Shown one piece after another: positions 753 to 17,433 of a stretch of DNA of 64,000 bases (positions are counted from its first letter, which is position 1; each line of letters begins with the position of its first letter). The notes beneath the pieces were generated by a model. That model was not told the DNA's origin and made no database searches. It saw only the letters and a list, made by a program, of their open reading frames with translations. Made by a program: the position numbers and the translations under genes. The stretch spans positions 2,232,001 through 2,296,000 of the forward strand of contig NC_005125.1 of NCBI RefSeq assembly GCF_000011385.1. Reading direction: 5' to 3'. The stretch comes from Gloeobacter violaceus PCC 7421 (GTDB lineage: Bacteria; Cyanobacteriota; Cyanobacteriia; Gloeobacterales; Gloeobacteraceae).

Positions 753-1872
753 ACGCCGGCAGCCGAGAATGCATTAGCCGGTCCATCCAGTTTTCAAGAT
801 AGGCGCGGTTGGCCCGCTGCTGATCAGGTCCGTCGGTATCGATTGGGTAGGGGGCAAGACCCAGCATGGCGGCGGTGGTGACACAGAACATCGATTTTTG
901 GAAGCTCACGCAGATTTGCACCCGCATGTCTTCTTCGCCGCGCAGGCTGCCCAGGTAATACTCGCGCAGGTACTTGGGCAGGTGCTGCTTCATGTCCTGC
1001 ATCAACAGCGTCGGCGGAATGCCCGAGCCGCCGATGGGAAGCGGATCGGCGTAGAGCGCGCCGTAGTTGAAATCGGCCTGATTTTCGGAAATTTGGCCCG
1101 CCTGGGCGTTGTAGGAGACCGTGCCCATAAACGGAAACGAGCGGAAGAAAACCGCTTCGACGTAGGGCACCGCGGCGTCCATCAAAAAGTGCAGTCCGGC
1201 CTCGGCCGGAATCAGTTCGTAGTGCTCGCCGCGAATATCGACCGCGTAGGTAAGGGGCAGATTCGCCGCCTCCACCAGACCGTCTTTGATGTGGGCCACC
1301 ACGTCGGGAATCGAGCGGATCTCACCCCGGTCGTAGCGGTCGGAAAGGATCAGAAACATCGGGCTCATCACCCGCCAGAACTGCCCCAGCACGCTGTAGT
1401 AACAGCTCTGGCGCGCCCACTCCGGCAGGAAATCCGGGAATATGCGGTGCAACAGCCCGGCGGCCGGGTTGAACTTGATCTTGGCGCGGATCGCCCGCTC
1501 GGCCCGCTCGGCAAAGGCGGGGCTGTCCAGGTAGGCGTCGAGTTTGGCGGCCCCGTGCCAGAGCATCGCCTTCATGCAGTACTCAGAAAATTCGTAATTA
1601 ATTCGCTGGTGGGCCCAGTGATCGAGCAGCTTCGGCAGGCTCACCTTGCCGTTGAAATACTTGAAAAACGGAAAGAAGACCAGAAACTGGCGATCGGCGA
1701 TGTAGAGCAGGTTGCGCCAGTAGGCGTCGAGCACCACGCCGTAGCTTTTGAGGACACCGACCACCTCCATCAGGTTGTCGGAACCGTCGGGCAGGAGCGC
1801 CCCGCCCGCCTCCATCCGCAAGATCACCTTGCCGAGGGGATGGGAAGAGCCTTTCTGGTCGTACATCACCAC
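745..1872 (-). CDS. chpX: CO2 hydration protein ChpX/CupB of the NDH-1 CO2-uptake complex
   Basis: A 375-codon gene whose product matches the ChpX/ChpY (CupB/CupA) family, the peripheral subunit that converts CO2 to bicarbonate on specialised NDH-1 complexes. Recognisable family segments are PLGKVILRMEAGGALLPD near the N-terminus and NLLYIADRQFLVFFPFFKYF. It is the last gene of ndhF4-ndhD4-chpX. By family rules the partner ndhD4/ndhF4 set goes with the constitutive low-affinity form (CupB). The start is GTG at 1872, 8 bases after the AAGGAG site that overlaps the ndhD4 stop; an ATG two codons downstream (1866) is the alternative. The 12-base gap to ndhD4 supports one transcript. The CupA/CupB choice is inferred from context. 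Confidence 0.88.
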   Translation of the reverse strand: MVMYDQKGSSHPLGKVILRMEAGGALLPDGSDNLMEVVGVLKSYGVVLDAYWRNLLYIADRQFLVFFPFFKYFNGKVSLPKLLDHWAHQRINYEFSEYCMKAMLWHGAAKLDAYLDSPAFAERAERAIRAKIKFNPAAGLLHRIFPDFLPEWARQSCYYSVLGQFWRVMSPMFLILSDRYDRGEIRSIPDVVAHIKDGLVEAANLPLTYAVDIRGEHYELIPAEAGLHFLMDAAVPYVEAVFFRSFPFMGTVSYNAQAGQISENQADFNYGALYADPLPIGGSGIPPTLLMQDMKQHLPKYLREYYLGSLRGEEDMRVQICVSFQKSMFCVTTAAMLGLAPYPIDTDGPDQQRANRAYLENWMDRLMHSRLPAFN

Positions 1873-1884
1873 GGACGGTTCTCC

Positions 1885-3417
1885 TTAGGGGGTAGGGGCG
1901 CGGCGCACCGCGACGGTGTGGGTGCGCTCGGCTTTAGCGGGCAGCGCGTCCGCCAGGGCGGGCCGCTCGGCGACGAGGGCGGCGGTGGTCGCTTCACTCC
2001 AGCGGACCAGCCACTGCGGTTGCAGGCCCAAAAAGACGACCAGCAGGGCGATGGCCAGACCCGGCAGTCGCTCCGACCAGCGCACCTGCGGCAGGTTGGC
2101 AAACTGGGCCGGCAGACGGCCAAAAAAGGCGCGGTTGATCAAGATCAGCAGGTAGACCGCCGTGAGGCCGGTCCCGAGGATGCACAGCAAGGTCTGCACC
2201 GGGAAAACCGCGTAGCTCGCCCGGAAGATGATGAATTCGGCCACGAAGCCCACCATGCTCGGGATGCCCGCGGAGGCCATCACGGCCAAGATCATCAGGC
2301 TGCCGACAAAGGGCAATCCGCGCTCCGGGGCCAGCAGACCGCACAACACGTCGATGTCGCGGGTGCCGGTTTTTTTGTAGACCACCCCCACCAGCAAAAA
2401 CAACAGCCCCGAGATGAGGCCGTGGCTCACCATCTGGGCGACCGCCCCCAGCAAACTCAAAGGCGTTGCGGCGGCGGCGGCGAGCAGAATATAGCCCATG
2501 TGCCCGATCGAACTGTAGGCCACCATTTTCTTCATGTCCTTCTGGGCGATGGCCGTCAGACAGCCGTAAAGGACGCTCACCACCGCCCAACCGGCAAGCC
2601 AGGGCGCTGCGACACTCCAGGCCTCGGGGAAAAAGCCCAGGCCAAAACGCAACAAGCCGTAGGTTCCGAGCTTGAGGAGCACCCCCGCCAGCAGCAGCGA
2701 CACCGGGGTGCTCGCCTCGACGTGGGCGTCCGGCAGCCAGGTGTGAAAAGGCACGAGCGGAATCTTGATGCCAAAAGCGACGAGCACCGCCCCCAACAGC
2801 AGAAACTGGGTGGCCAGGGGCAGATTGTGGGCAGCCAGCACTTCGTAGGAATAATTGGCGATGCCCGCCAGACCCGCCAGGCCGAAGAACGCCACCAAAA
2901 CCATGATCCCCGAGATGGCGGTATAGAGCAAAAACTTGGTGGCGGCGTAGTTGCGCCGGGGTCCACCCCAGATGGCTATCAGCAAATAGAGCGGAATCAG
3001 TTCCAGTTCGTAGAACAAGAAAAACAACAGTGCGTTCTGGGTGGCGAAAGCCCCCACCACCCCGCCGCACAAAAGCAGCAAAAGCGCATAGTAGAGGCGC
3101 GGGCGCTGGACGTTCTCGTCGCTGCTGAAGATCGCTATCCAGACCAAAAAGGCATTCAGCAGCAACAGCGGCAGCGACAACCCGTCGATGCCCAGTTCGT
3201 AGGACAGACCCAGCGAGGTCATCCAGGGGACAAATTCGCGAAATTGCAGCCCGCCGTCGGCCGGATTGTACTGGAAGGCAAGGACCGCCGAGAGCACCAA
3301 CCCTAAAGACGCCACCAACAGAGCAATCCGGCGCGGCCAGACAGCCGATACGCCGGCGGGCCAGCAACCGACCACCGCCGCTCCCAGGATAGGCAACCAG
3401 ACCAGCAAACTGAGCAT
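1885..3417 (-). CDS. ndhD4: NAD(P)H-quinone oxidoreductase subunit 4 (NdhD4 type)
   Basis: A multi-pass membrane protein of about 510 residues, a MrpD/NuoM-like proton-pumping subunit of NDH-1. Conserved elements seen are FYELELIPLYLLI, the proton-channel region with IPLVPFHTWLPDAHVEA, and KLGTYGLLRF. It lies between ndhF4 and chpX with 6- to 20-base gaps, which assigns it to the CO2-uptake form of the complex rather than the respiratory NdhD1. The start is ambiguous: ATG at 3417 has GGAG 12 bases upstream, while GTG at 3426 lies only 3 bases from it. I chose 3417 because it places the first transmembrane helix (LSLLVWLPILGAAVVG) at the N-terminus. Confidence 0.93.
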   Translation of the reverse strand: MLSLLVWLPILGAAVVGCWPAGVSAVWPRRIALLVASLGLVLSAVLAFQYNPADGGLQFREFVPWMTSLGLSYELGIDGLSLPLLLLNAFLVWIAIFSSDENVQRPRLYYALLLLLCGGVVGAFATQNALLFFLFYELELIPLYLLIAIWGGPRRNYAATKFLLYTAISGIMVLVAFFGLAGLAGIANYSYEVLAAHNLPLATQFLLLGAVLVAFGIKIPLVPFHTWLPDAHVEASTPVSLLLAGVLLKLGTYGLLRFGLGFFPEAWSVAAPWLAGWAVVSVLYGCLTAIAQKDMKKMVAYSSIGHMGYILLAAAAATPLSLLGAVAQMVSHGLISGLLFLLVGVVYKKTGTRDIDVLCGLLAPERGLPFVGSLMILAVMASAGIPSMVGFVAEFIIFRASYAVFPVQTLLCILGTGLTAVYLLILINRAFFGRLPAQFANLPQVRWSERLPGLAIALLVVFLGLQPQWLVRWSEATTAALVAERPALADALPAKAERTHTVAVRRAPTP

Positions 3418-3432
3418 CGCCGCCACCCGCTC

Positions 3433-5289
3433 CTAGCGCAACAAAGTCGTCAGTTGATAAGCGCACACCACGATCACCCCGAGCAGGATCGTGAGCAAAT
3501 AGGCCTGGGCCTGTCCCGGCGCACTGCGTTTGAGTCCTTCGCCCCCGGCAATCGTAGCCACCCCGATCATGTTGACCACGCCGTCGACCAGGTGGCGATC
3601 GAACTTGGACATCAAACTCGAAGCCCCGGCCACCCAGACGACAATGGTCCGGCGGTAGAACTGCTCGATATAAAGATCGTAGGCCAGAAAATCGTGGGCC
3701 ACCCGCCAGGTCTGAATAAAGGAAGCATGCACCCAGGCGGTCGGGAGCTTTTCGTGGGTGATCCACCAGCCCACCAGGCAGCCCGCCAGGCTGGAAGCCA
3801 TCAGCGAACCGCCGAACACCCAGGTGGGCACCGGTCCTTCCACCGAAGTCAAAAGTCCCAACTGGAGCAGAATCACCGGCGAGAGGATGTTGATGATCGA
3901 AAGCGACAACATCGGCACCGACATCGGCCAGGCGATTTCGGGAGCGCGCCGGGTCTTGGCCTGTCGAGGCCCCAGGAAGACCCGGCAGTAAACGCGGGTG
4001 AGATTGAGAGCGGTGAGCCCGTTGACCAGCAGCAACACCCCGACCGCCCAGGGAGCCCAGGTCCAAAGCCGCTCGCTCGCGTAGATCGAAGCCCAAAAAG
4101 TGCCCAGAGGCAGCAGCGACACCGAAGCGGCCCCTCCGACCACAAAGGCGGTGGTAGTGGCCGGCAGGCGCGACCACAACCCGCCCATCTCGGTGACATC
4201 CTGGGTGCTGGTAATCAAGATCACCGCCCCGACACTCATAAACAGCAACGCCTTGGCGACGGCGTGGGTCAGCAGCAGCAGCAGCGCCACTTCGTTTTGC
4301 TCGAGGCCCACGGCGACAAACACCAAGCCCAGGTAGGCACTTGTCGAATGGGAGAGAGCACGCTTGATGTCGATCTGTGCCAGGGCTACACAGGAGGCGC
4401 CGACCGCCGTCACTGTGCCCACCACCAGCAAGGCTCCCAGTACCCAGGGCGAAAGCGCCAGAACCGGCTGCATCTTGATGAGCACGTAGGCTCCACAGGC
4501 CACTACCAGCGAGTTGCGCATGATCGAGGCGGGGTTGGGTCCTTCCATCGCCTCGTCGAGCCAGAAGTGCAACGGGATCTGGGCACACTTGCCGATTGGA
4601 CCGGCAATCAGGGCCAGTCCCAGGAGTGTGGCGCTCAAGGGGGGCAAATCGGCCGTCTCAGCCCAGAGCGCCAGGTCTTGAAAATTGAGGCTGGGGGCGA
4701 GATTGGCCAGGACCACCACCCCCATCAACAGCAACAGATCCCCCACCCGCTTGGTCAGGAAGGCGTCGCGCGCCGCGGTCACCACCAGCGGCTGGGCGTA
4801 CCAGAAGCCCACCAGCAGATAAGTCGAAAGGGTGAGCATCTCCAGCAGCGCGTAGCTCAACAGCAAGTTGTTGCTCATCGCCAGGCCGCAGATCGCTCCT
4901 TCAAAAAAGCCCAACAGCGCGAAGAAGCGCGCCAGCGCCCAGTCCTTTTCCATGTAACCCAGGGCATAGATCTGGGCGCACAAACTCAAAAACGTAATGA
5001 CCACCACCGCGCCAATCGTGACCGGCGAGACCTCCAATTCGAGGGCCAGACGCATTCCCTGTGTTTCAAGCCAGGTGTATTCCAGCTGCAGCGGCAGTCG
5101 CCCCCAGACGGCGGGCAGCAACGTCAGGCCATGCACTAGGGCCAGCACCGCCATCAAAATGTTGAAGTAAGCCGCCGGCCGCGGTCCGCCGCTACGCACC
5201 CCGACCGTCGCCCAGGGCAGGGTCAACACCGCGCCGATCAGCCCATAGAAGGGTATCCACCAGCTTGTGAAAAGGAGCGATTCGGTCAT
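3433..5289 (-). CDS. ndhF4: NAD(P)H-quinone oxidoreductase subunit 5 (NdhF4 type)
   Basis: A 618-residue polytopic membrane protein of the NuoL/NdhF antiporter-like family and first gene of the ndhF4-ndhD4-chpX operon. Family marks include LLSYALLEMLTLSTYLLVGFW, PLHFWLDEAMEGPNPAS (proton-channel region) and the long C-terminal helical segment after about residue 430. An in-frame ATG lies 15 codons further upstream, but ATG at 5289 is preferred because GGAGAAG sits 8 bases upstream and the first helix then begins at once. Together with NdhD4 and ChpX it forms the distal membrane arm that couples CO2 hydration to electron transport. With no thylakoids in Gloeobacter, the complex would sit in the cytoplasmic membrane (inference from organism guess). 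Confidence 0.92.
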   Translation of the reverse strand: MTESLLFTSWWIPFYGLIGAVLTLPWATVGVRSGGPRPAAYFNILMAVLALVHGLTLLPAVWGRLPLQLEYTWLETQGMRLALELEVSPVTIGAVVVITFLSLCAQIYALGYMEKDWALARFFALLGFFEGAICGLAMSNNLLLSYALLEMLTLSTYLLVGFWYAQPLVVTAARDAFLTKRVGDLLLLMGVVVLANLAPSLNFQDLALWAETADLPPLSATLLGLALIAGPIGKCAQIPLHFWLDEAMEGPNPASIMRNSLVVACGAYVLIKMQPVLALSPWVLGALLVVGTVTAVGASCVALAQIDIKRALSHSTSAYLGLVFVAVGLEQNEVALLLLLTHAVAKALLFMSVGAVILITSTQDVTEMGGLWSRLPATTTAFVVGGAASVSLLPLGTFWASIYASERLWTWAPWAVGVLLLVNGLTALNLTRVYCRVFLGPRQAKTRRAPEIAWPMSVPMLSLSIINILSPVILLQLGLLTSVEGPVPTWVFGGSLMASSLAGCLVGWWITHEKLPTAWVHASFIQTWRVAHDFLAYDLYIEQFYRRTIVVWVAGASSLMSKFDRHLVDGVVNMIGVATIAGGEGLKRSAPGQAQAYLLTILLGVIVVCAYQLTTLLR

Positions 5290-5573
5290 CGACAGATCTT
5301 CTCCAGGGGCGCTGAGCAAAAACCGGTCCTGCACCCGTGGAACAGAGACAAGCCTACCCAGCTACTTTACGATTTCTTAAGCATTATACTTTGGTTTATC
5401 AAAATTTTAATCTCGTCACCGGATTTGTCACATTCGGAAGCATCGCGCCCCAGCGGCGCGCGAAGACCTATGGCACGGCAGGATCCCGTTGCGCGAACCC
5501 CGGACAAAGCACTAATAATTATGCCTGCAATTACAGAAAATTCCGGTCGTGTTGCGCTGCCGGTCAGAAAAAT

Positions 5574-5945: not shown

Positions 5946-6812
5946 ATGCAACAAAACACCACCAGTTCCCATCCGCTGCTCGGCGGCCGCGCGGCGGTGC
6001 TTGCCACCATGCATCGCAAGGAGACGGCGATTGCCCCGGTGCTCGCCTCGGGCCTGGGGTTGCAGGTGCTTGTCCCGCCGGCGGATTTCGATAGCGACCG
6101 CTTCGGAACGTTTACCCGCGAAGCGCCCCGTCCCGGCGATCAGCTACAGACGGCCCGCGCCAAGGCCCGTGCCGGCATGGCCGCCACCGGACTGGCGGTG
6201 GGCATAGCAAGCGAAGGCAGTTTCGGCCCCCATCCGGGTCTGCCCTTTGTGCCTGCCAACCGCGAGATCGTCGTGCTCATCGACGACGAGCACCACCTGG
6301 AGGTGGCGGGCGAAGCGTTCTCGACCCAGACCAATTTTGCCGCCGGTGCCGTCCGCAGTCTGCCGGAGGCCCTCGCTTTTGCGCAGCGGGTTGGATTTCC
6401 CGAGCACGGGCTGATCGTGGGTACCGGCCTCCCCGAGGACACTCTTCTCAAAGGCGTCGTCGATCCGCAGCAGCTGAAGGAAGCGGTCGCCTTTGCCCTG
6501 GCCCGCTCGGGGCGGGTGCACCTTGAGACGGACATGCGCGCTTTGTACAATCCGACCCGCATGGGGGTGATCGCCCAGGCCGCCCGCAATCTAGTCGAAA
6601 AACTCCACCAATTTTGCCCCCGCTGCGGCCATCCGGGATACGGCATGATCGCACTTCGGCGCGGCTTGCCCTGCGCGCTGTGCGGCACGCCCACCGACTT
6701 GCCCCGCGCCGAAGTCCACGGTTGCTCGCGCTGCATATGGCAAGAGGTCGTGTCCAGGCCGGACGGCCTGCTCGCGGCGGATCCGGCCCAGTGTCCGCTG
6801 TGCAACCCTTAG
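5946..6812 (+). CDS. DUF6671 family protein with C-terminal zinc ribbons
   Basis: A 288-residue soluble protein. The N-terminal 200 residues contain LLGGRAAVLATMHRKE and LETDMRALYNPTRMGVI, the pattern of the DUF6671 family found in cyanobacteria and other bacteria. The last 70 residues hold four CxxC-type pairs (CPRCGHPGYG, CALCGTP, CSRC, CPLCNP), consistent with two zinc ribbons. The family function is not known to me. It ends exactly where the putative operator of the cmp operon begins, so it could be read into that operon or be independent. No strong ribosome binding site precedes the ATG at 5946. Confidence 0.8.
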   Translation: MQQNTTSSHPLLGGRAAVLATMHRKETAIAPVLASGLGLQVLVPPADFDSDRFGTFTREAPRPGDQLQTARAKARAGMAATGLAVGIASEGSFGPHPGLPFVPANREIVVLIDDEHHLEVAGEAFSTQTNFAAGAVRSLPEALAFAQRVGFPEHGLIVGTGLPEDTLLKGVVDPQQLKEAVAFALARSGRVHLETDMRALYNPTRMGVIAQAARNLVEKLHQFCPRCGHPGYGMIALRRGLPCALCGTPTDLPRAEVHGCSRCIWQEVVSRPDGLLAADPAQCPLCNP

Positions 6813-6866
6813 CATAGATTAATATCTATGATTTGTATTATGTAAATCGACTTTTCTCTATGCATA
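6813..6866 (+). promoter_or_regulatory. Putative operator of the cmp operon: four CATAG/CTATG half-sites
   Basis: Positions 6813-6830 form a perfect inverted repeat, arms CATAGAT and ATCTATG around TAAT. Positions 6857-6866 form a second perfect palindrome, CTATGCATAG. Both use the same CATAG half-site. They lie 115-170 bases upstream of cmpA, in the only non-coding gap before it. LysR-type regulators (CmpR, CcmR) control this operon in other cyanobacteria and bind AT-rich dyads, so a regulator site is plausible. Which protein binds is not shown by the sequence. Confidence 0.45.
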
Positions 6867-6981: not shown

Positions 6982-8328
6982 ATGGCAGGTAAACCACTTG
7001 GCCAGAGGGGCGCCGGCGCCCAGGCCGCCGACTTTGAGCAATCTGCACGGTGGAAACCGACCAGACGCCAGTTTTTGCAGGTGAGCGGGGCCGCCTCGGC
7101 CGGTTTATTGCTGGTACCCGGGTACGCGGGGGCGGCGGACGCGCCTGAGGTGACGGCGGTTCGGATCGGCTTCGTAGGCCAGACGGACGCGTCGCCCATC
7201 ATCATCGCCAAGGTCAAAGGGTACTTCGAGAAGCACGGCCTCAAGGATGTTGAACTGATCAAGCAGCCTTCGTGGGGGGTGACCCGCGATAACCTTGAAC
7301 TCGGTTCCAGGGGCGGCGGACTCGATGTGGCGATGGTCCTGCGGCCGATGCCCTTTTTGATGGCCCTCGGGGTGAACACCAAGGGCAACAAAAAAATTCC
7401 CATATATGTGCCGTTGCAACTGAACGTCGACGGGCAGGGGATCACCGTGGCCAAGGTGTTCAACGCCGAGAATGTCCGCCTCGATGCCTCGGTGATGAAG
7501 CCCAAGATTGAAAAGGCCAAAGCCGAGGGCAAAAAGCTCAAGTTCGCCAGCACCTTCAAAGGCGGCACCAGCGATTTGATGCTGCGCTATTGGCTGGCTG
7601 CCGGCGGTATCGACCCGGACAACGACATCGATTGCCTGTACGTGCCGGGGCCGCAGCTGGTGGCGAGCATGAAGGTGGGCAATCTGGAGGGTTTCTGCGT
7701 GGGCGACCCCTGGCACGAGCGGGCGATCAGCGAAAAGATCGGCTATTCTGCGGTGATTTCTGGAGAACTCTGGAAGGACCATCCCGAAAAAGCCCTCGCC
7801 ATGCGCGCCGACTGGGCCGACAAGCACCCCAAAGCCGCCCGCGCCATCCTCAAAGGGATTATGGAAGCCCAGCAGTGGTGCGACGTGATGACCAACCGCG
7901 ACGAGTTGTGCACGATTCTCTCCTCGCGCGAGTACGCCAATGTGCCGGTGGCCAACATCAACAACCGCCTCAAAGGTTCCATCGAGTACGGCAACAACCG
8001 TCCGGTGGTGAGCAACAGTCCCTACGTGATGCGCTTCTGGCGCGAAAACGCCTCCTATCCCTACAAGAGCCACGATCTCTGGTTTATGACCGAGAATATC
8101 CGCTGGAACTTGCTGCCGGCTGCTACCGATGTCAAGGCGGTGGTGGGGGCGGTCAACCGCGCCGATCTGTGGCAGCAGGCCGCCAAAGAAGGGGGCATTG
8201 CCGCTGCGCAGGTTCCGAAGGTGGCCTCGCGGGGTGTGGAGGTGTTCTTCGACAAGACCCGCTTCGACCCGGCCAACACCACCGCCTATCTCAAAGCGCT
8301 CAAAATCAAGCGCGTCGCGCTCGCTTGA
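6982..8328 (+). CDS. cmpA: Bicarbonate-type ABC transporter solute-binding protein (CmpA/NrtA family)
   Basis: A 448-residue periplasmic binding protein of the CmpA/NrtA family. Family segments seen include VRIGFVGQTDASPIIIAKVKG, KFASTFKGGTSDLMLRYWLAAGG and GFCVGDPWHERAI. The N-terminus carries a twin-arginine signal (T27-R-R-Q-F-L) followed by a hydrophobic stretch ending AGA near residue 51. There is no lipobox cysteine, unlike the lipoprotein form known from other cyanobacteria. AGAAGAGG precedes the ATG. The binding protein alone cannot separate bicarbonate from nitrate. The neighbouring carbonic anhydrase and carboxysome operon favour bicarbonate, so the cmp name is an inference from context. 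Confidence 0.85.
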   Translation: MAGKPLGQRGAGAQAADFEQSARWKPTRRQFLQVSGAASAGLLLVPGYAGAADAPEVTAVRIGFVGQTDASPIIIAKVKGYFEKHGLKDVELIKQPSWGVTRDNLELGSRGGGLDVAMVLRPMPFLMALGVNTKGNKKIPIYVPLQLNVDGQGITVAKVFNAENVRLDASVMKPKIEKAKAEGKKLKFASTFKGGTSDLMLRYWLAAGGIDPDNDIDCLYVPGPQLVASMKVGNLEGFCVGDPWHERAISEKIGYSAVISGELWKDHPEKALAMRADWADKHPKAARAILKGIMEAQQWCDVMTNRDELCTILSSREYANVPVANINNRLKGSIEYGNNRPVVSNSPYVMRFWRENASYPYKSHDLWFMTENIRWNLLPAATDVKAVVGAVNRADLWQQAAKEGGIAAAQVPKVASRGVEVFFDKTRFDPANTTAYLKALKIKRVALA

Positions 8329-8368: not shown

Positions 8369-9205
8369 ATGACGACGACCCTCGAAGGCCGCCGCCAATC
8401 GCCGGTCCAACAACTGCTTGCCGCATTGCCCGATGCCGGGAGCCTGCAGAAACTCGCAGCGCCGGTGGTGGCGATCGGTGTGTTCCTGCTGCTGTGGCAG
8501 CTGTTGACTTTGAGTCCCGACGCCACGCTGCCGGGACCTGCCAAGGTGGTCTCCGAGACCTGGGGACTGATCGTGGATCCGTTTTTCCGGGGTTCCGGCA
8601 CCAACCAGGGGCTCTTCTGGCAGATCGCAGCCAGCCTGCAGCGGGTGGCCCTCGGCTTCAGCCTCGCCGCCGCAGTCGGGATCGTGGTCGGTATCTTGAT
8701 CGGTGCCAATGCGCTGATCTACTCGGCCCTCGATCCGCTCTTCCAGGTGCTGCGCACCATTCCGCCCCTCGCCTGGCTGCCTATCTCACTTGCGGCCATC
8801 CAGCAGTCCGAACCTGCGGCGATTTTTGTGATTTTCATTACCGCCATCTGGCCCATCATCATCAACACGGCGGTAGGCGTCCAGCAGATCCCCCAGGACT
8901 ACAACAACGTCGCCCGCGTCCTGCAGCTGTCGCGCCCGAAGTACTTCTTCAAGGTGCTGCTGCCGGCGGCCCTGCCGTATATCTTCACCGGCCTCAAGAT
9001 TGGCGTCGGCCTCTCGTGGCTGGCGATCGTGGCGGCGGAGATGCTGATTGGCGGCGTCGGCATCGGCTTTTTTATCTGGGACGCCTACAACAGCGCCAAG
9101 GTGAGCGAGATCGTGCTCGCCCTGGTCTACGTCGGGCTGGTGGGCCTGTTGCTCGACAAGCTGGTGGGCTTCATCGGCAAGCTCGTTGCTCCCACCGAGC
9201 GCTGA
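8369..9205 (+). CDS. cmpB: Bicarbonate-type ABC transporter permease (CmpB/NrtB family)
   Basis: A 278-residue integral membrane protein with the BPD_transp_1 fold. The cytoplasmic EAA-type loop with its invariant glycine is seen around QDYNNVARVLQLSRPKYFF. About six membrane helices can be traced, beginning with VVAIGVFLLLWQLL. It follows cmpA by 40 bases with GGAGAG upstream of the ATG, and presumably works as a homodimer with the ATPases CmpC and CmpD. Substrate assignment rests on operon context. Confidence 0.87.
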   Translation: MTTTLEGRRQSPVQQLLAALPDAGSLQKLAAPVVAIGVFLLLWQLLTLSPDATLPGPAKVVSETWGLIVDPFFRGSGTNQGLFWQIAASLQRVALGFSLAAAVGIVVGILIGANALIYSALDPLFQVLRTIPPLAWLPISLAAIQQSEPAAIFVIFITAIWPIIINTAVGVQQIPQDYNNVARVLQLSRPKYFFKVLLPAALPYIFTGLKIGVGLSWLAIVAAEMLIGGVGIGFFIWDAYNSAKVSEIVLALVYVGLVGLLLDKLVGFIGKLVAPTER

Positions 9206-9277
9206 AACCCGGCACCTGAAACCTAAAATCTGTCCAATCCAGAGATTGATTTCGATTCACACCTGCAGGAGGACCCT

Positions 9278-9982
9278 ATGATCGAGCAACAGCCTAGATT
9301 CTTCTCGCGCCGGGATCTGTTTGTAACCGCCGGTACGGGGTTGTTGGCCGGGCTGATCACCGGTGCTTTACCCAGGAGCGCGGGCGCCACCACCAACCTC
9401 ACCGCCGAGCAGGCGCTCGAGCGGCTCGTCGAAGGCAACAAGCGCTGGATCCAGTTCAAACTCACCGGAGCGGACCGCACCAAAAGCCGACTGGCGGAAG
9501 TGGCCAAAGGCCAAAGTCCCTTCGCCGCCTTCGTCAGCTGCGCCGATTCGCGCGTACCGGCTGAACTTATCTTCGATCAGGGCCTGGGAGACCTGTTCAT
9601 GAACCGGGTGGCAGGCAACGTCCTCGATGAGATGATGCTGGGCAGCCTCGAATTTGCCACCTCCGTCCTCGGAGCGCCCCTGGTCGTGGTCATGGGCCAT
9701 CAGCGCTGTGGTGCGGTGCAGGCGGCGGTCAAAGCGGTGACCGAGGGCACCCAGTTTCCGGGCCACCTGGCCAATTTTGTCGATGCCATCCGCCCGGCGG
9801 CGGCGAGCATCAAGGGCATGCCGGGCGACCCGGTGGAAAACGCCATCCGTGCCAACGTGCTCATCACCGTCGACAAGATCAAAACGGCCCCGCCCATCAT
9901 CAGCAAGCTGGTGGAGCAGAGCAAAGTCAAGGTCGTGGGCGCCCGCTACGACCTCGATACCGGTGCTGTGAGCTTTTACTAA
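9278..9982 (+). CDS. Beta-class carbonic anhydrase with Tat signal, inserted in the cmp operon
   Basis: A 234-residue beta carbonic anhydrase that interconverts CO2 and bicarbonate. The zinc site is complete: C88-x-D90-x-R92 (in SCADSR) and H141-x-x-C144 (in GHQRCGAV). The N-terminus reads SRRDLFVTAG at residues 10-19, followed by a hydrophobic core and an AGA cleavage site near residue 37. That is a twin-arginine signal without lipobox, so the enzyme should be folded and exported to the periplasm. GGAGG lies upstream of the ATG. It sits between cmpB and cmpC in the same direction (72- and 19-base gaps), so it is very probably co-expressed with the transporter and could convert CO2 to its substrate outside the cytoplasmic membrane. 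Confidence 0.9.
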   Translation: MIEQQPRFFSRRDLFVTAGTGLLAGLITGALPRSAGATTNLTAEQALERLVEGNKRWIQFKLTGADRTKSRLAEVAKGQSPFAAFVSCADSRVPAELIFDQGLGDLFMNRVAGNVLDEMMLGSLEFATSVLGAPLVVVMGHQRCGAVQAAVKAVTEGTQFPGHLANFVDAIRPAAASIKGMPGDPVENAIRANVLITVDKIKTAPPIISKLVEQSKVKVVGARYDLDTGAVSFY

Positions 9983-10001
9983 TTTTGTGGAGAACGCTTC
10001 G

Positions 10002-12002
10002 ATGTCCGTTTTTCTCGAAGTCGAACAGATCGACAAAGTCTTCGCTTTGCCGGGAGGCGGCAACTACATCGCCCTCAAAGGTGTGGAATTGACCGTGCGC
10101 AGGGGCGAATTCGTCTCGCTCATCGGCCATTCCGGCTGCGGCAAGTCGACTTTGCTCAACATCGTCGCGGGTCTCGACCGCCCGAGCACCGGTCGCGTGG
10201 CCCTCGCCGGCCGGCCGGTGCTCGGCCCCGGCCCCGACCGGATGGTGGTCTTCCAGAATTACTCGCTGCTGCCCTGGCTCACGGTGCGCGAGAACATCGC
10301 CCTGGCCGTGGACGAGGTCTACACCGACAAATCCAAAAAAGCGCGCGAGGAAATTGTTCGCTCCCACATCCAAATGGTGGGCCTCACCCCGGCCGCCGAG
10401 AAGAAGCCCGCTCAACTGTCCGGCGGCATGAAGCAGCGCGTCGCCATCGCCCGGGCGCTTTCTATCCGCCCCGAGTTGTTGCTCCTTGATGAGCCGTTCG
10501 GCGCCCTCGACGCCCTCACCCGCGGCAATCTCCAGGAGCAGTTGATGCGCATCTGCGAGGAGACCGGCGCCACCTGCATGATGGTCACCCACGATGTGGA
10601 CGAGGCGTTGCTGCTGTCCGATCGCATCGTCATGCTCACCAACGGCCCCCAGTCGCGCATCGGCCAGATCCTGGAGGTGCCCTTCGAACGCCCGCGCACA
10701 CGCCTGGAGGTGGTCAACCACCCGAACTACTACAGCCTGCGCAGCGAGATGCTCTATTTTCTGGGCCAGCAAAAGCGCATCAAGCAGCTGCGCTCCCGCC
10801 AGAAGGATCCCATCGCCCGCCACGGCCTCGAAAAGATCAACCTTGAAGTGGGCTATTTGCCTCTTACCGCCTGCGCGCCGCTGGTGGTGGCCAAAGAAAA
10901 GGGATTTTTCAACCGTCACGGTCTGGAAGAAGTGACTCTGGTGCGCGAGCCGAGCTGGCGGGCGGTGGTGGACGGGGTGGCCGGGGGCTATATCGACGCG
11001 GCCCAGATGCCCGCCGGGATGCCCCTGTGGTTTACTCTGGGGGGCCACGAGGACAAGCCTTTGCCGGTGGTGACCGCCCTCACCCTCTCGCGCAACGGCA
11101 ACGCCGTTACCTTGGGTAAAAAATTTCTTGACCTGGGTGTCTTCAACCAGGCGGACTTAAAGGCCTACTTGCAGCGCACCGCCCGCGACCGCCACACCTT
11201 CGGCCTGGTCCACCCGGCCTCGATGCACAACTTGCTGTTGCGCCACTGGCTTGCGGCAGGCGGCATCCACCCGGACCGGGACGTGGATCTGACCACGCTG
11301 CCGCCCGCCCAGATGATTGCCAACCTCAAAGCCGGCAACATCGACGGCTTTTGCATCGGCGAACCCTGGAACATCCGGGCCGCCGCCGAGGGCATCGGCT
11401 TTACGGTCGCGACGGATCTGGAGATCTGGCCCGGTCACCCGGGCAAGGTGCTGGGGGTGCGCGAGGACTGGGCGCAGACCTACCCCAATACCCACCTGGC
11501 CCTCATCAAAGCGCTCATCCAAGCCTGCTTGTACTGCGCCGAGGAAGCGAACGCCGAGGAGATCCGCGGCCTTCTTTGCCGCGACGAGTACCTGGGGGCC
11601 GATCCCGCCTACGTCCAGTTGGGCGAGGGCGAACCGAACACCTGTGCCCTCGGCAAGGACCGCCTCCAGTACGCCCACCACCTGTTTGCCGGTGCCGGGG
11701 TGAACCGCCCCAGCCGCACCGAGCAACTGTGGATCCTCACCCAGATGGCTCGCTGGGGGGATGTGCCCTTCCCGCGCAACTGGGTGGAGGTGATCGAGCG
11801 GGTCTGCCGGGTGCAGGCTTTCAGCACCGCTTCGCGCGAGTTGGGGCTCGAAGTCGATTACCGGCGCGGTCCCATCCGTCTGGCCGACGGCACCCCCTTC
11901 GACGCCGACGACCCGCTGGGTTACCTCAAGGCGCTTGAGATCAAAAGCGATGTCTATATCGCCGAGGTGCCCTTGCCCGCAAGCCTCGCCGCCGCCCGCT
12001 GA
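10002..12002 (+). CDS. cmpC: Bicarbonate-type ABC transporter ATPase fused to a binding domain (CmpC/NrtC family)
   Basis: A 666-residue two-domain protein. Residues 1-250 are an ABC ATPase with Walker A GHSGCGKST, signature LSGGMKQRVAIARAL and Walker B LLLLDEPFGALDAL. Residues 280-660 repeat the CmpA fold without a signal peptide (compare HPASMHNLLLRHWLAAGGIH and GFCIGEPWNIRAA), and in relatives act as a cytoplasmic regulatory sensor. An in-frame GTG exists at 9987, but ATG at 10002 is preferred because GTGGAG lies nine bases upstream. The fusion is typical of cyanobacterial NrtC/CmpC. Confidence 0.9.
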   Translation: MSVFLEVEQIDKVFALPGGGNYIALKGVELTVRRGEFVSLIGHSGCGKSTLLNIVAGLDRPSTGRVALAGRPVLGPGPDRMVVFQNYSLLPWLTVRENIALAVDEVYTDKSKKAREEIVRSHIQMVGLTPAAEKKPAQLSGGMKQRVAIARALSIRPELLLLDEPFGALDALTRGNLQEQLMRICEETGATCMMVTHDVDEALLLSDRIVMLTNGPQSRIGQILEVPFERPRTRLEVVNHPNYYSLRSEMLYFLGQQKRIKQLRSRQKDPIARHGLEKINLEVGYLPLTACAPLVVAKEKGFFNRHGLEEVTLVREPSWRAVVDGVAGGYIDAAQMPAGMPLWFTLGGHEDKPLPVVTALTLSRNGNAVTLGKKFLDLGVFNQADLKAYLQRTARDRHTFGLVHPASMHNLLLRHWLAAGGIHPDRDVDLTTLPPAQMIANLKAGNIDGFCIGEPWNIRAAAEGIGFTVATDLEIWPGHPGKVLGVREDWAQTYPNTHLALIKALIQACLYCAEEANAEEIRGLLCRDEYLGADPAYVQLGEGEPNTCALGKDRLQYAHHLFAGAGVNRPSRTEQLWILTQMARWGDVPFPRNWVEVIERVCRVQAFSTASRELGLEVDYRRGPIRLADGTPFDADDPLGYLKALEIKSDVYIAEVPLPASLAAAR

Positions 12003-12026: not shown

Positions 12027-12836
12027 ATGATCGCCAATTCCGTCTCGCTCGAACCGCTGCTGGCCATCCGCAACGTCAGCAAATCGTTCCCGACCCCGAA
12101 CGGCCCCTACACGGTGCTGGAGGACGTCAATCTCGCCGTGCGCCAGGGCGAATTCGTCTGCATCATCGGTCATTCCGGCTGCGGCAAGACGACCCTGCTC
12201 AACATGGTGGCGGGCTTTGCCACCCCCACCACGGGCGAGGTGCTCCTGCGCTCCGAGCCCATCGCCCGGCCCGGCCCCGACCGGATGGTGGTCTTCCAGG
12301 GCTACGCGCTGCTGCCGTGGCTCACGGCCTTCGAGAATATTTATCTGGCCGTCGACGCGGTCTGGCCCACCAAGTCCAGAAGCGAAAAAACGACCATCGT
12401 GCAGACCAACCTGGCCCGGGTGGGCCTGTCGGATGCGGCCGAGAAAAAGCCCGCCCAACTGTCCGGCGGCATGAAGCAGCGCGTCGCCATTGCCCGGGCG
12501 CTTTCCATCCAACCGGAAGTACTGATTCTGGACGAACCTTTCGGCGCTCTTGACGCCATTACTAAAGAAGAACTCCAGGAGCAACTGCTGCAAATCTGGA
12601 ACACCAGCCGCGCCACGGTGCTGATGATCACCCACGACATCGACGAGGCACTGTTTCTGGCCGATCGGCTGGTGATGATGACCAACGGTCCGGCCGCCCA
12701 TATCGGCGAGGTACTGACGATTCCCTTTACCCGGCCGCGCAACCGCACCCGCATCATGGAAGACCCGCGCTACTACGACCTGCGCAACCACGCCCTGGAT
12801 TTTCTTTATCGCCGCTTCGCCCACCAGAGCGACTAA
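12027..12836 (+). CDS. cmpD: Bicarbonate-type ABC transporter ATPase (CmpD/NrtD family)
   Basis: A 269-residue ABC ATPase with Walker A GHSGCGKTT, signature LSGGMKQRVAIARAL, Walker B VLILDEPFGALDAI and the H-loop ITHDIDEA. It is closely similar to the ATPase half of CmpC and would form the ATPase heterodimer of the transporter with it. It ends the cmp operon. Its TAA (12834-12836) overlaps the TAG of ccmO on the other strand (12833-12835), so the two operons converge without a gap and any terminators must lie inside the opposing gene. Confidence 0.9.
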   Translation: MIANSVSLEPLLAIRNVSKSFPTPNGPYTVLEDVNLAVRQGEFVCIIGHSGCGKTTLLNMVAGFATPTTGEVLLRSEPIARPGPDRMVVFQGYALLPWLTAFENIYLAVDAVWPTKSRSEKTTIVQTNLARVGLSDAAEKKPAQLSGGMKQRVAIARALSIQPEVLILDEPFGALDAITKEELQEQLLQIWNTSRATVLMITHDIDEALFLADRLVMMTNGPAAHIGEVLTIPFTRPRNRTRIMEDPRYYDLRNHALDFLYRRFAHQSD

Positions 12837-13570
12837 CGCTCGGGAGTCTTGGCGGGCAGCTCCAACAATTCGCCCACTTCCTGGCGCACCAGGCTCGGCA
12901 GAAGCAGGGGCTCGGGCACTTCGAGCAACGCCGGGGAGATGGGCAGCGATTGCTCCAGTTCGTCGAGGGGCCGGGGAATGACCATGACCGCGTGCAGTTC
13001 GCCGATGCGCTCGGCTTCTTTCATCCCGGCATCGATGGCGTAGATTACATCGGCAACGTGGCCCTGGATGATCACCGTGCACAGCCCGGCGCCGATTTTT
13101 TCGTAGCCGATAAGGTGCACCTCGGCGGCGCGCAGCATCGTGTTGCTCGCGCCCACCAGCGCCGGAAATCCACGGGTCTCCAACAAGCCAATCGCCTGGT
13201 TGCTGAAATGGCTGAAAGCCTGCTTGCGGGCGTAGCGGGGGATGCGGCTGTTGATGGGCAGCACCGCCTCCAGGTTGGCGAGGGGCCGGGGGATGATCGA
13301 AGAAGAGACCAGTTGACCGAACTCCTTGGCCGTCTGCACCCCCGCCTCGACGGCCAGGCGGACATCGGAGGTCTTGCCCCGCACCACAGCGGTGCAGTAC
13401 CCGCCGCCCACTTTTTCGTAGCCTATCAGCATTACCCCGGCGGACTTGAGCATCGCGTCGGCGGTCCCGACGATCGCGGGATAACTGGAGGTCGAAACCA
13501 GACCGAGGGCGCTTTCCATTAGAAGTCCTGACTCACGCCCTGGCAAAGGCGTGGCAATCCTCTCAATCAT
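12833..13570 (-). CDS. ccmO: Carboxysome shell protein CcmO (tandem BMC domains)
   Basis: A 245-residue shell protein with two BMC (bacterial microcompartment) domains: first at residues 15-105 (ALGLVSTSSYPAIVGTADAML, LIGYEKVGGGYCTAVVRG), second at 120-215 (AIGLLETRGFPALVGASNTML, LIGYEKIGAGLCTVIIQG). A longer frame runs upstream to 13633, but GGAGGAGCT directly before the ATG at 13570 fixes the start. CcmO is thought to sit at the shell as a pseudohexamer. It is the last gene of the ccmKKLMNO operon, whereas in many beta-cyanobacteria ccmO is elsewhere. The tail after residue 215 is acidic and leucine-rich. Confidence 0.92.
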   Translation of the reverse strand: MIERIATPLPGRESGLLMESALGLVSTSSYPAIVGTADAMLKSAGVMLIGYEKVGGGYCTAVVRGKTSDVRLAVEAGVQTAKEFGQLVSSSIIPRPLANLEAVLPINSRIPRYARKQAFSHFSNQAIGLLETRGFPALVGASNTMLRAAEVHLIGYEKIGAGLCTVIIQGHVADVIYAIDAGMKEAERIGELHAVMVIPRPLDELEQSLPISPALLEVPEPLLLPSLVRQEVGELLELPAKTPER

Positions 13571-13645
13571 AGCTCCTCCGTTTTGCCCACCCGGATAGGG
13601 AATGGCGGTTTCGCACGATGTGCATAGGGCCAAGGATGGGCAAAC

Positions 13646-14251
13646 CTACGCTCCTCCACCGGTCGCGGAATCGGGGTTCTGCAGCGGGGCGTTGTGGGGA
13701 AAGAGGCTGAGGCGCAGCCGCTCCAGGTAAGCCTTGCCCGCCACCGGCGGCTGGCCGTTCTGGACGATGCCGCCCTGCGGTTCGGGGAGGGCCGCCTGCA
13801 CCGGCGGGTCAAACCCGGCCGCAAGCGCCTGGTTGGGATCGCGTGGAGCCGGAGCGGCGGGAACCACGTAGGGTTGTGCCGCCGCCGTGGGGAAGGCCTC
13901 GGCGGAGCGGCCGGCCTGGCCGACCAGTGAATTGGGAGGCACCACCTGGCCGGGGGCGATGTCGGGATTGAGCAGGGTCGTGGCGGTGCCGACGCAGGCG
14001 TCAGCACCGATTTTGCCTCTGCCCACCACCAGCACCCCCGCGCCAAGGCTGGCCCCCGAGCCTACTTCGAGGGTGCCCTGGTGGGCGTGCAGGATGGCTC
14101 CCATGCCGATGCACGCTCCTGAGCCGATCACGATGCGGCTGTCGGGGTCGGCCCGCAGCAAAGCGCCGGAGGCGACGGCAGCACCGGGATGGATGGTCAC
14201 ATCGCCGCTTGTGTAGGCGTTGGCGTCCCAGGGCGGTGGCAGAGAAGCCAT
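13646..14251 (-). CDS. ccmN: Carboxysome assembly protein CcmN
   Basis: A 201-residue protein. Residues 15-110 form a left-handed beta-helix of hexapeptide repeats (for example IVIGSGACIGMGAILHA, LEVGSGASLGAGVLVVG), which binds CcmM. A proline/alanine-rich linker (about 115-170) leads to an amphipathic helix at about 171-188 (GKAYLERLRLSLFPHNA), the encapsulation peptide that recruits the CcmK/CcmO shell. A further 13 residues follow the helix, so the peptide is not exactly terminal. It starts 4 bases after the ccmM stop. Confidence 0.92.
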   Translation of the reverse strand: MASLPPPWDANAYTSGDVTIHPGAAVASGALLRADPDSRIVIGSGACIGMGAILHAHQGTLEVGSGASLGAGVLVVGRGKIGADACVGTATTLLNPDIAPGQVVPPNSLVGQAGRSAEAFPTAAAQPYVVPAAPAPRDPNQALAAGFDPPVQAALPEPQGGIVQNGQPPVAGKAYLERLRLSLFPHNAPLQNPDSATGGGA

Positions 14252-14255
14252 CGGT

Positions 14256-16262
14256 TCAGGGCCGCTGGATGATCAGTTCAGCCACGCGGCGCTTGGCCTT
14301 GGGGTCGATGCCAATCAGCCGCACGTACTCCCCGGCGTGCTCGCGCAGCACGGTCTCCAGCGCCGCCGCCGCCTCCGGCTCGCGGGCCGCCTGGATTGCC
14401 GGGCCGCTCACCCACGAGTTGGCCTTGAAGCGGCGGACATCGGCAAATTCAACCCCAATCCGATGGCCCTGACCGAGCAGATGCCGCAACTGATCGAGCA
14501 CCTCGCTGCTGAGCGAACTGCTGCGCATCGGGCCGGGTGCGTGTGCCGGTGCGGGACTGTAGCCGCCCGCGGCCGGTGTGCTCGCAGTAGCAGCCCCCCC
14601 CGAGACGGGCCTACCGTTGGGCCGCTGGATGACGGTCTCGGCCACGCGGCGCTTGGCTTTGGGATCAATGCCGATGATGCGGACATATTCGCCCGCATGC
14701 TCGCGCAGCACGTTCTCCAGGGCACTGACCACCTCCGGCTCGCGGGCCGCCTGGATCGCCGGACCGCTCACCCACGAGTTGGCCCGGAAGCGGCGCTCGT
14801 CAGCAAATTCGACGCCGAGGCGATGGCCCTGGCTGAGCAGTGAACGCACCATATCGAGCACGGCGGCATCGAGCATGCCGCCCCCGCTCGCCCGATGGCT
14901 GACGGTGTTGTAACCCTGAGCTGGAGCGGCGGCTCCCCCACTGGGTTGCTTGCCGTTGGGGTGCTGAATAATCGTCTCGGCCACACGGCGCTTGGCCTTC
15001 GGGTCGATGCCGATGATGCGGACGTATTCGCCCGCGTGCTCCTGTAGACAACCTTCGAGGGCTGCGAGCACTTCCGGTTCGCGGGTGGCGGCAATCGGCG
15101 CGCAATTCTGCCAGGAATTGGCCCGGAATCGCCGCTCATCGGCGTGTTCGGTGCCGATGCGATAGCCCTGGGAAAGGAGCGATTGCACTTGCTGGGCTGC
15201 CTCCGGACTCAACAGACCGCCGTTGCCGGGCCGGTGGGAACCGCCCGGGGGAGCGGCCGGGGTCATAGCGAACTTGCCGCTGCTGCTGTTGGCCTCGACC
15301 GGTTTGCCGTCGGGCCGTTGGATGACGGTCTCGGCCACGCGGCGCTTGGCTTTGGGATCAATGCCGATGATGCGGACATATTCGCCCGCATGCTCGCGCA
15401 GCACGTTCTCCAGGGCACTGACCACCTCCGGCTCGCGGGCCGCCTGGATCGCCGGACCGCTCACCCACGAGTTGGCCCGGAAGCGGCGCTCGTCGGCGAA
15501 TTCGACCGCGAGGCGACAGCCCTGGGCAAGCAGGGAGCGCACCGTGTCGAGGGTTTGACTGGTCATGAACATACTGCTTACCTGAGCGTGGGTTTTGGGT
15601 GTGGGTTTACCGTTGGTGCCCGGCGCCGCCGGGCTGCTCTCGTCGCGAATCGGCACGATACACTCGATGTCGGCGGCGCAGCGGTAACCCTGGCGCAACG
15701 CATCGTTGATGCCGATGACGTGCTTGGCAAAGTGGATGTCGATATCCTGGGCGTCGGGCAGGCGGTTGGCCTGCTGCTGGGAGGTGATCACCGCGCCGGA
15801 GGGCACGTACTTGCCGGGCGGGATTTCCACATCCTGCACCAGCGCGTGCATCATCACGATGCAGCCTTTGCCCACCCGGGCGTTGAAGATCGTCGAGCGA
15901 AAACCGATGAAGCAATCGTCGCCGACGTAGCACGGCCCGTGGATGAGGGCCATGTGGGTAATCGAGGTGTTGGAGCCGACCCACACCGAGTAGGATTGGC
16001 CGTCGTCGCCGTTGACCCGCCCTTCCTGCAGGCCGTGCATGACCACGCCGTCCTGGATGTTGGTGTTGGCACCAATGTGAAAAGGTGAACCTTCGTCGGC
16101 ACGGATCGAGGTTCCCGGCGAGACCAGCACGTTGGCGCCGATGCGTACATCGCCGATGATCTGCGAGAAACTGTGTACGTAGGCGGACGGATCGATTGCG
16201 GCTTCAGCCAACCGTCTCGACCACGGGGTAGGGGGAGCCGCAAGGCGGCTTTGTGCAACCAT
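14256..16262 (-). CDS. ccmM: Carboxysome scaffold CcmM: gamma carbonic anhydrase domain plus four Rubisco-small-subunit-like repeats
   Basis: A 668-residue scaffold. Residues 1-210 are a gamma carbonic anhydrase domain with the three zinc histidines present (two in THMALIHG, one in IVMMHALV) and the C-x5-C pair (RCAADIEC) needed for redox activation in the Thermosynechococcus enzyme, so it looks catalytically competent. Four SSUL repeats follow at about 233-320, 352-440, 463-550 and 580-668, joined by Pro/Ser/Gly linkers; they condense Rubisco. Only the second repeat keeps the cysteine pair (WQNCAP and LEGCLQEH). ATG at 16262 has GGAGG nine bases upstream. An internal start for the short form is listed separately. 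Confidence 0.95.
14626..14801 (-). repeat. 176-bp segment of ccmM SSUL repeat 3, identical to repeat 1
   Basis: This stretch matches 15319-15494 over 176 bases with no difference that I can find. The offset is 693 bases (231 codons), so the copies are in frame. Repeats 2 and 4 differ from it at many positions. Confidence 0.85.
15319..15494 (-). repeat. 176-bp segment of ccmM SSUL repeat 1, identical to repeat 3
   Basis: Partner of 14626-14801. Identity ends sharply on both sides (third-codon differences resume at once), as expected for gene conversion or a recent duplication with conversion inside the repeat array. Confidence 0.85.
15560..15585 (-). promoter_or_regulatory. Probable internal translation start of the short CcmM isoform
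   Basis: Between the carbonic anhydrase domain and the first SSUL repeat, AGGTAAG lies 5 bases before an in-frame ATG at 15572 (codon 231), with another ATG two codons on (15566). Initiation here would give a 438-residue protein holding only the four SSUL repeats. Beta-carboxysomes are known to need such a short CcmM made from an internal site in the same gene. Position and spacing fit that role; initiation itself is inferred. Confidence 0.55.
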
Positions 16263-16292
16263 CAACCGATTCCTCCAAACGCATTCAACCTG

Positions 16293-16595
16293 CTAGCGGT
16301 ACTGGTCCTTTTTGCTGTAGAGCGGGCGGTTGTCGACGCTGACCGTGTCGATGATGCCGATCACCACCGCGTCGACTGGACGCTTTTCACTGCCCGCCAC
16401 CTGCCTGGCCGCACTGCCGCGGCTGAACAGTACCCATTCGTCGAGCCCGGCCCCGACGCCGTCGGCCGCCACTTCGTATTGGGGAAGCGGCTGGCCGGCC
16501 TCATCGATAAGCTGCAGCAGCAAAAATTTCACCCCGACCATGCTGGGCTCTTTTTGCGAGCTGACCACTGTGCCGCGGACTCTGCCAATCTGCAT
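16293..16595 (-). CDS. ccmL: Carboxysome shell vertex protein CcmL
   Basis: A 100-residue BMC-P (EutN/CcmL) protein that forms the pentamers closing shell vertices. Family marks are the N-terminal [15 protein letters not shown], the central GAGLDEWVLFSRGSAAR, and AVVIGIIDTVSV. The start overlaps the stop of the upstream ccmK by one base (TGATG), implying translational coupling. Confidence 0.95.
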   Translation of the reverse strand: MQIGRVRGTVVSSQKEPSMVGVKFLLLQLIDEAGQPLPQYEVAADGVGAGLDEWVLFSRGSAARQVAGSEKRPVDAVVIGIIDTVSVDNRPLYSKKDQYR

Positions 16596-16936
16596 CAGGG
16601 TCTGCCGTAAGGACGGATAGAGTTGACGCCCTCGCGGAACTGCTCGACCGCCTCGGTGTAGCGGATGGGCAGCACGTACTCGAGGTTCTCGTGGGGACGG
16701 GCGATGATGTGGTGCGAGAGCAACTGACCGCCGTAGACGCGCTTGATCGATTCGATCCCCGCCGCCACCGAAGCTTGCACCTCGGAAACATCGCCGCGCA
16801 CGATCACCGTGACCCGGCCGCTGCTGATCTTCTCATAACCGACCAGGGTCACCCGGGCCGCCTTGACCATCGCATCCGCCGCCTCGACCACGGCCGGAAA
16901 ACCCAGGGTTTCAATCATGCCAACTGCAACTGCCAT
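16595..16936 (-). CDS. ccmK: Carboxysome shell hexamer protein CcmK (second copy)
   Basis: A 113-residue BMC-H shell protein. Diagnostic segments are [43 protein letters not shown] and [30 protein letters not shown] lies upstream of the ATG at 16936. It carries a 10-residue C-terminal extension (NSIRPYGRP end) not present in the first copy. With the other CcmK it should make the flat facets of the shell. Confidence 0.94.
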
Positions 16937-16973
16937 TCAGATTCCTCCTTAAAAAACACACAAACGCAACCCA

Positions 16974-17282
16974 TCAAGTTCGGAACTGCTCGACCGCTTC
17001 GGTGTAGCGAATCGGCAGCACGTACTCGAGGTTCTCGTGGGGACGAGCAATAATATGCGTCGAAAGTATCTCGCCGCCATTCACCCGCTTGGCCGATTCG
17101 ACGCCCGCCGAAACCGAAGCCTGGACCTCGGAAACATCGCCGCGCACGATCACCGTGACCCGGCCGCTGCCAATCTTTTCATAACCGACCAGGGTGACCC
17201 GGGCCGCCTTGACCATCGCGTCCGCCGCTTCGACGATGGCCGGAAAGCCCTTGGTTTCGATCATTCCAACAGCAATAGGCAT
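16974..17282 (-). CDS. ccmK: Carboxysome shell hexamer protein CcmK (first copy, first gene of operon)
   Basis: A 102-residue BMC-H shell protein, about 85-90% similar to the adjacent CcmK by eye ([57 protein letters not shown]). A longer frame begins at 17300, but GGGAGG six bases before the ATG at 17282 fixes the start at MPIAVGM. First gene of ccmKKLMNO. Confidence 0.94.
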
Positions 17283-17433
17283 GAACAACCTCCCGTGCAT
17301 TTCGCGCAGTCAAACATAACAGTTTGTGGCGAAAATTGTGAGGGAATACTCATCGCTTTTCGTAGGCGAAAATCCTGGGTATTCCTAGCTTATAGGATAA
17401 GACCACGCCTCCCCGAATGCAATATTAGTCGCG

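Follow-up and report, generated by a model that had tools for sequence, protein, structure and literature searches.

The 64,000-nucleotide stretch of the Gloeobacter violaceus PCC 7421 genome analysed here (the window) encodes a beta-carbonic anhydrase (CA) with a predicted twin-arginine (Tat) export leader, and its gene lies inside an ABC uptake operon preceded by a putative low-CO2 operator. Our preferred reading, to which we give a probability of roughly 60%, is that this CA would work in the periplasm, keeping CO2 and bicarbonate near equilibrium beside the co-produced ABC uptake system. The argument draws on gene order, on the placement of the operator, and on related CAs with similar leaders that are found in other types of carbon-uptake operon.

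Results

The CA gene (9278..9982, plus strand) starts with ATG, follows a Shine-Dalgarno sequence AGGAGG (9267..9272, plus strand) and encodes 234 aa. Its assignment as a beta-carbonic anhydrase, made in the original prediction, is borne out by a Pfam Pro_CA match (PF00484; E=5.6e-40; 137.6 bits against a curated cut-off of 25.7), by its best solved-structure relative, the beta-CA 2a5v/1ym3 (E=4e-36), and by its catalytic residues. The alignment places the zinc ligands, likewise predicted to be complete, at C88 (9539-9541), D90 (9545-9547), H141 (9698-9700) and C144 (9707-9709), with R92 of the dyad in the same plus-strand span (9539..9709); the resulting site, Cys-X-Asp-X-Arg ... His-X-X-Cys, is unchanged in 102 of 102 aligned sequences. 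A search of the genome (4,659,019 bp, one contig) found a second beta-CA, leaderless and unlinked to carbon-uptake genes, and found no alpha-CA, no SbtA and no cyanase.

The leader covers approximately residues 1-37 (to 9388), with the twin-arginine motif SRRDLFV at residues 10-16 (9305..9325, plus strand); its h-region has a mean hydrophobicity of 1.6, its c-region carries Arg33, and cleavage is likely between AGA and the T that follows. Support from Tat profiles is weak: TIGR02811 matches at E=8.5e-4, under its cut-off, and general profiles score the leader poorly, although its hydrophobic core is clear. The relative L125 does exceed the TIGR01409 cut-off, and the genome encodes TatC. The low profile scores could be taken to mean that the leader is unused and the CA cytoplasmic, which we think very improbable. 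Every operon-linked relative has an RR leader with a hydrophobic core, and among 100 sampled relatives the leaderless sequences (8 of 8) are all unlinked. Furthermore, CA in the cytoplasm would short-circuit the CO2-concentrating mechanism. Most cyanobacteria are reported to have no cytoplasmic CA (PMC13249358).

The operon runs along the plus strand as A (6982..8328, substrate-binding protein), B (8369..9205, permease), CA, C (9987..12002, with the probable start an ATG at 10002; an ATPase with a binding-protein-like regulatory domain, CmpC-like) and D (12027..12836, ATPase). The gap between B and CA is 72 bp and that between CA and C is 4-19 bp. A weak promoter-like match at 9202-9229, in the B-CA gap, means that the CA may be transcribed separately from B. 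The A-B-CA-C-D order occurs in all five Gloeobacterales genomes with a complete operon (G000, G013, G061, G033 and G083); in a sixth operon-bearing genome (G047) the contig stops soon after B. We considered that the CA might be linked to the operon by chance, and this is ruled out by the recurrence in five genomes together with the clustering of gene contexts on the CA tree described below. The claim that the CA sits inside a bicarbonate transporter operon thus stands as to its position between permease and ATPase genes, while the sequence leaves the substrate undecided.

The gene content of the window makes it a carbon-concentrating island. NDH-1 CO2-uptake genes (745..5334, minus strand) encode a CupB-type ChpXY (745-1872), NdhD (1885-3426) and NdhF (3433-5334); a DUF6671 protein gene (5946..6812, plus strand) lies directly upstream of the ABC operon; and the beta-carboxysome genes ccmO, ccmN, ccmM and ccmL, with two ccmK-like BMC genes, occupy 12833..17300 on the minus strand. 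DUF6671 genes recur beside cmp-type, sbt and ndhF3 operons (window 5946-6812; L085 4541-5404; L191 3887-4750; L172 1595-2467; L174 10731-11633), and we regard DUF6671 as an uncharacterised candidate carbon-concentrating gene. Elsewhere in the genome (C1:2790152-2791168) there is a third ChpXY (CO2 hydration) gene, in addition to cupA and the one of cupB type.

For a response of the whole operon, with its CA, to carbon limitation, the operator pattern is the strongest argument. Upstream of A lies an inverted repeat, ATAGATTAATATCTAT (6814..6829, plus strand), a putative operator that matches exactly ATAG-N8-CTAT, the consensus reported for the low-CO2 LysR regulator NdhR (PMC13249358); a second, degenerate copy, ATCGACTTTTCTCTAT (6846..6861, plus strand), has one mismatch. 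Such sites number two in the window against 0.14 expected, and both are upstream of A. The pattern ATAGA-N6-TCTAT, which contains the published motif, precedes the operon in six of the six Gloeobacterales genomes having it, and has only three exact occurrences in the genome. One of the others lies between a gene for a CbbR-like LysR protein (genome C1:1072648-1073592) and the ndhF3-ndhD3-cupA-cupS operon, and the pattern is found between lysR and ndhF in G000, G013, G033 and G083. In G072 it is 107 bp upstream of sbtA-sbtB, and in G047 it is 92 bp upstream of a free-standing CA gene with a Tat leader. Totals of these sites in relatives are no higher than those of a reversed control pattern, so that the argument rests on where the sites are placed and not on their number. 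Upstream of sbtA in other cyanobacteria, ATAG-N8-CTAT shows no enrichment (0/37), which limits the argument to Gloeobacterales plus a small number of ndhF3 and cmp loci. The remaining exact site in the genome precedes a gene for a DUF2490 protein (L240 1686-2954; genome C1:2454685-2455953); similar sites occur in G061 (L257) and, with apparently the same gene, in G013 (L246).

The nature of the transporter was examined through its subunits. Protein A is 44% identical to CmpA (2i48), 51% to NrtA (2g29) and 54% to the NrtA of its own genome, whose gene heads a separate nrtABCD-narB operon. A tree of 73 binding proteins sets the A proteins of Gloeobacterales apart as a group (support 0.973), and their pocket is distinctive: Gln, Glu and Asp occur in each CmpA sampled, and His, Lys and Glu in each NrtA sampled, whereas the Gloeobacterales clade has Ser at the position of NrtA His196, Lys at Lys269 and Asp at the Glu position. 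Reported Ca2+ ligands of CmpA are Glu271, Gln155 and Gln198 (PMC13249358); Glu271 and Gln198 are replaced by Lys and Ser throughout the clade, and with at least two of the three ligands gone the CmpA-type Ca2+-bicarbonate site is missing. NrtA K269 and H196 are described as basic residues that offset the charge of nitrate (PMC8786288), so that with Ser in place of His196, and Lys269 kept, half of the nitrate site is gone as well. The leader of A, LLLVPGYAGAADAP, includes the Tat motif TRRQFLQ (7060-7080, plus strand, read from the sequence) and no Cys, hence no lipobox such as that of the lipoprotein CmpA. We class A as a third binding-protein subclass, between NrtA and CmpA, seen only in Gloeobacterales. 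Binding proteins with the Ser/Lys/Asp pocket are those of the window (6982-8328) and of L122, L123, L124, L125 and L138. Separately, the genome has a lone NrtA/CmpA-like binding protein (L041 6100-7389; genome C1:4153099-4154388) whose leader contains RR and whose gene has no recognised transporter genes adjoining it.

The C subunit gives a clearer signal, scoring 1020 bits to CmpC against 881 to NrtC and being CmpC-like also in its tree; as a control, NrtC of the same genome favours NrtC (718 bits) over CmpC (674). The B permease is intermediate between the Cmp and Nrt types. The original idea that CmpA catches the bicarbonate made by the CA therefore needs revision: its Cmp side is upheld by the C subunit, but A is not a canonical CmpA, having lost Ca2+ ligands and being nearer to NrtA overall.

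A possible objection, then, is that nitrate, nitrite or some other small oxyanion is what the ABC system carries into the cell and that the CA is a mere neighbour. The closeness of A to NrtA (51-54%, against 44% for CmpA) and its retained Lys269 are in keeping with this, yet we consider it quite unlikely, given that His196 is Ser across the whole clade, that an exact NdhR motif lies upstream with no NtcA box (GTA-N8-TAC) in the 260 bp upstream of the operon, that the operon sits between NDH-1 and carboxysome genes, and that the regulatory ATPase is CmpC-like, with a true nrtABCD-narB operon elsewhere in a genome that has no cyanase. The separate nrtABCD-narB operon, the NdhR motif, the CmpC-like subunit and the lack of cyanase also weaken nitrate or cyanate transport as the main role of the operon. 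The name bicarbonate transporter is supported by the apparent regulation and is unproven by sequence.

Gene neighbourhoods were compared for 100 relatives of the CA within Cyanobacteriia; these were high-scoring matches rather than a random sample, near relatives among them are not independent, and context labels were assigned automatically from genes within 600 bp of the CA. SbtAB-linked CAs numbered 39 (38 after setting aside L225, whose sole neighbour is a weak SbtA paralogue), NDH-linked 19, ABC-linked 7, mixed 2 and unlinked 33. About 66 of the 100 thus lie among carbon-uptake genes, in the arrangements sbtA-sbtB-CA, ndhF3-CA-ndhD3-cupA or cmp. Exported-type beta-CA genes follow sbtA-sbtB in L136, L139, L202 and some 35 further loci; in L132, L131, L128, L085 and some 14 more, the NDH-1MS operon has such a gene between its ndhF3 and ndhD3. 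An exception to the usual ndhF3-CA-ndhD3-cupA order among NDH-linked CAs is the second CA of L136, which is 3' of cupA; this CA belongs to a supercluster (L136 1-13211) of NDH-1 genes with a cup gene, sbtA-sbtB-CA and ndhF3-ndhD3-cupA. L172 has a merged cluster, sbtA-sbtB-CA-cmpA-cmpB-cmpC-cmpD-DUF6671, and in L198 and L189 sbtA-sbtB-CA is joined to ccm genes.

Context follows the CA tree, with 11 label changes observed against 51 in shuffles. The ABC-linked CAs of Gloeobacterales form one group (support 96/89), and those of L173, L174 and L231, with the arrangement cmpA-CA, fall in a different group; linkage to ABC bicarbonate genes thus appears to have arisen at least twice. The CA of L175, from a Synechocystis-like genome (G217), groups (100/99) with two ndhF3-CA-ndhD3-cupA sequences, apart from the window CA. 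We found no description of sbtA-sbtB-CA, ndhF3-CA-ndhD3 or A-B-CA-C-D in the open-licence papers searched, and earlier notice may exist elsewhere; a 2026 commentary states that, before SbtC, no SbtA-associated proteins were known beyond SbtB (PMC13360264).

Discussion

We propose that the CA gene product would be an active beta-CA sent by the Tat system to the periplasm, and that, when carbon is limiting, it would be made alongside an ABC uptake system from the NrtABCD/CmpABCD superfamily, presumably by co-transcription. At the cytoplasmic membrane it would hold periplasmic CO2 and HCO3- near equilibrium: as the transporter withdrew what is probably bicarbonate, the CA would refill the pool from incoming CO2 and from CO2 that escapes the cell, if net catalysis runs in that direction. 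The photosynthetic membrane here is the cytoplasmic membrane, and the pool would also face the NDH-1 CO2-uptake complexes. As there are no thylakoids, one periplasm is shared by the ABC and NDH-1 systems, and both could profit from the CA.

That shared periplasm leads to the question of whether the CA acts chiefly for the NDH-1 complexes, which lie in that membrane too, by making CO2 from bicarbonate or by accepting product outside, with its place in the ABC operon reflecting co-expression only. Nearly all of the 19 NDH-1-linked relatives have the ndhF3-CA-ndhD3-cupA order, and the CA of L175 groups with sequences of that kind; this grouping fits the reported action of EcaB with CupA/CupB, and the link of EcaB to CupA/B and its thylakoid location point the same way (PMC10096703, PMC11456788). 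Moreover, cupB-ndhD-ndhF genes are next door (745-5334), and the operator is common to the ABC operon and ndhF3. With the same CA family beside NDH-1MS in other cyanobacteria, bicarbonate supply to a CmpA-like protein has at least one live competitor as a reading. We nevertheless think it unlikely that NDH-1 is the main client in Gloeobacter. First, in all Gloeobacterales having an operon-linked CA, it is inside the ABC operon. Second, the ndhF3-ndhD3-cupA operon of the same genome has no CA. Third, the ABC-linked CAs of Gloeobacterales are a clade of their own, and the bicarbonate transporter SbtAB is the partner of about 38 relatives.

A further alternative places the work of the CA on the outer side of the photosynthetic membrane, equivalent to the lumen side, where it would buffer protons or provide bicarbonate, with photosystem II as one possible user. 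Gloeobacter is described as lacking thylakoids (PMC7281370), so that its periplasm corresponds to the lumen, which would make such a role conceivable; we hold it to be highly doubtful, since operon context and regulation all indicate carbon uptake and no photosystem genes are among the neighbours.

Returning to the periplasmic equilibrator beside an uptake system, its partner would vary by lineage, being either a bicarbonate pump (SbtA, BCT1) or the CO2-taking NDH-1MS complex. In the widest form of this proposal, to which we give somewhat less than even odds, Tat-exported beta-CAs would be an overlooked standard part of inducible cyanobacterial carbon uptake, with an SbtAB lineage, an NDH-1MS lineage and independent ABC lineages, each pump having its own periplasmic equilibrator, and the Gloeobacterales A subclass would take bicarbonate without Ca2+. 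Conserved operon ties between exported beta-CAs and three carbon-uptake systems give each enzyme a concrete, testable partner, and an operon-linked exported CA is a candidate missing component for rebuilding bicarbonate uptake in crop chloroplasts. Gloeobacterales are the deepest cyanobacterial branch, and their operon bears on the divergence of bicarbonate and nitrate ABC transporters.

Among known systems, BCT1/CmpABCD shares the A-B-C-D architecture, the CmpC-like ATPase with a regulatory domain, a putative carbon-limitation-type operator and adjoining carbon-concentrating genes; the Gloeobacter operon differs in its exported-type CA gene between B and C, and its A protein differs from CmpA in lacking Glu271, Gln198 and the lipobox Cys. 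NrtABCD is nearest to A by overall score and shares Lys269, whereas the Gloeobacter operon has Ser for His196, no NtcA box found and no narB. In the E. coli cyn operon the beta-CA gene cynT stands beside cynS and, as here, adjoins genes for handling a small anion, but CynT is cytoplasmic and the Gloeobacter genome has no cyanase. The alpha-CA of Rhodopseudomonas palustris is of a different class from the beta enzyme here and, to our knowledge, is not embedded in any transporter operon. It is periplasmic and reported to be required for taking up bicarbonate (Puskas 2000, cited in PMC10880623), and in both organisms an extracytoplasmic CA is proposed to hold the carbon pool of the periplasm close to equilibrium.

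The idea of external CAs feeding carbon transporters has been put forward before, without confirmation (PMC11360081), and the literature continues to call their physiological role in cyanobacteria unknown (PMC11360081, PMC10096703). The closest known enzyme is EcaB (slr0051) of Synechocystis sp. PCC 6803; this beta-CA is exported, bears a twin-arginine motif, is mostly thylakoid-associated and is reported to act with CupA/CupB (PMC11360081, PMC10096703, PMC11456788). It resembles the Gloeobacter enzyme in class, in its twin-arginine leader, in its periplasm/lumen side, which for the Gloeobacter enzyme is predicted, and in its link to carbon acquisition (PMC11360081, PMC10096703). EcaB being already known as an exported CA, what appears new relative to the open-licence papers searched is the embedding of such CAs in carbon-uptake operons. 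The Synechocystis-like CA belongs to an NDH-linked branch of the tree, unlike the Gloeobacter CA, which is encoded within an ABC uptake operon under a putative operator of the NdhR type.
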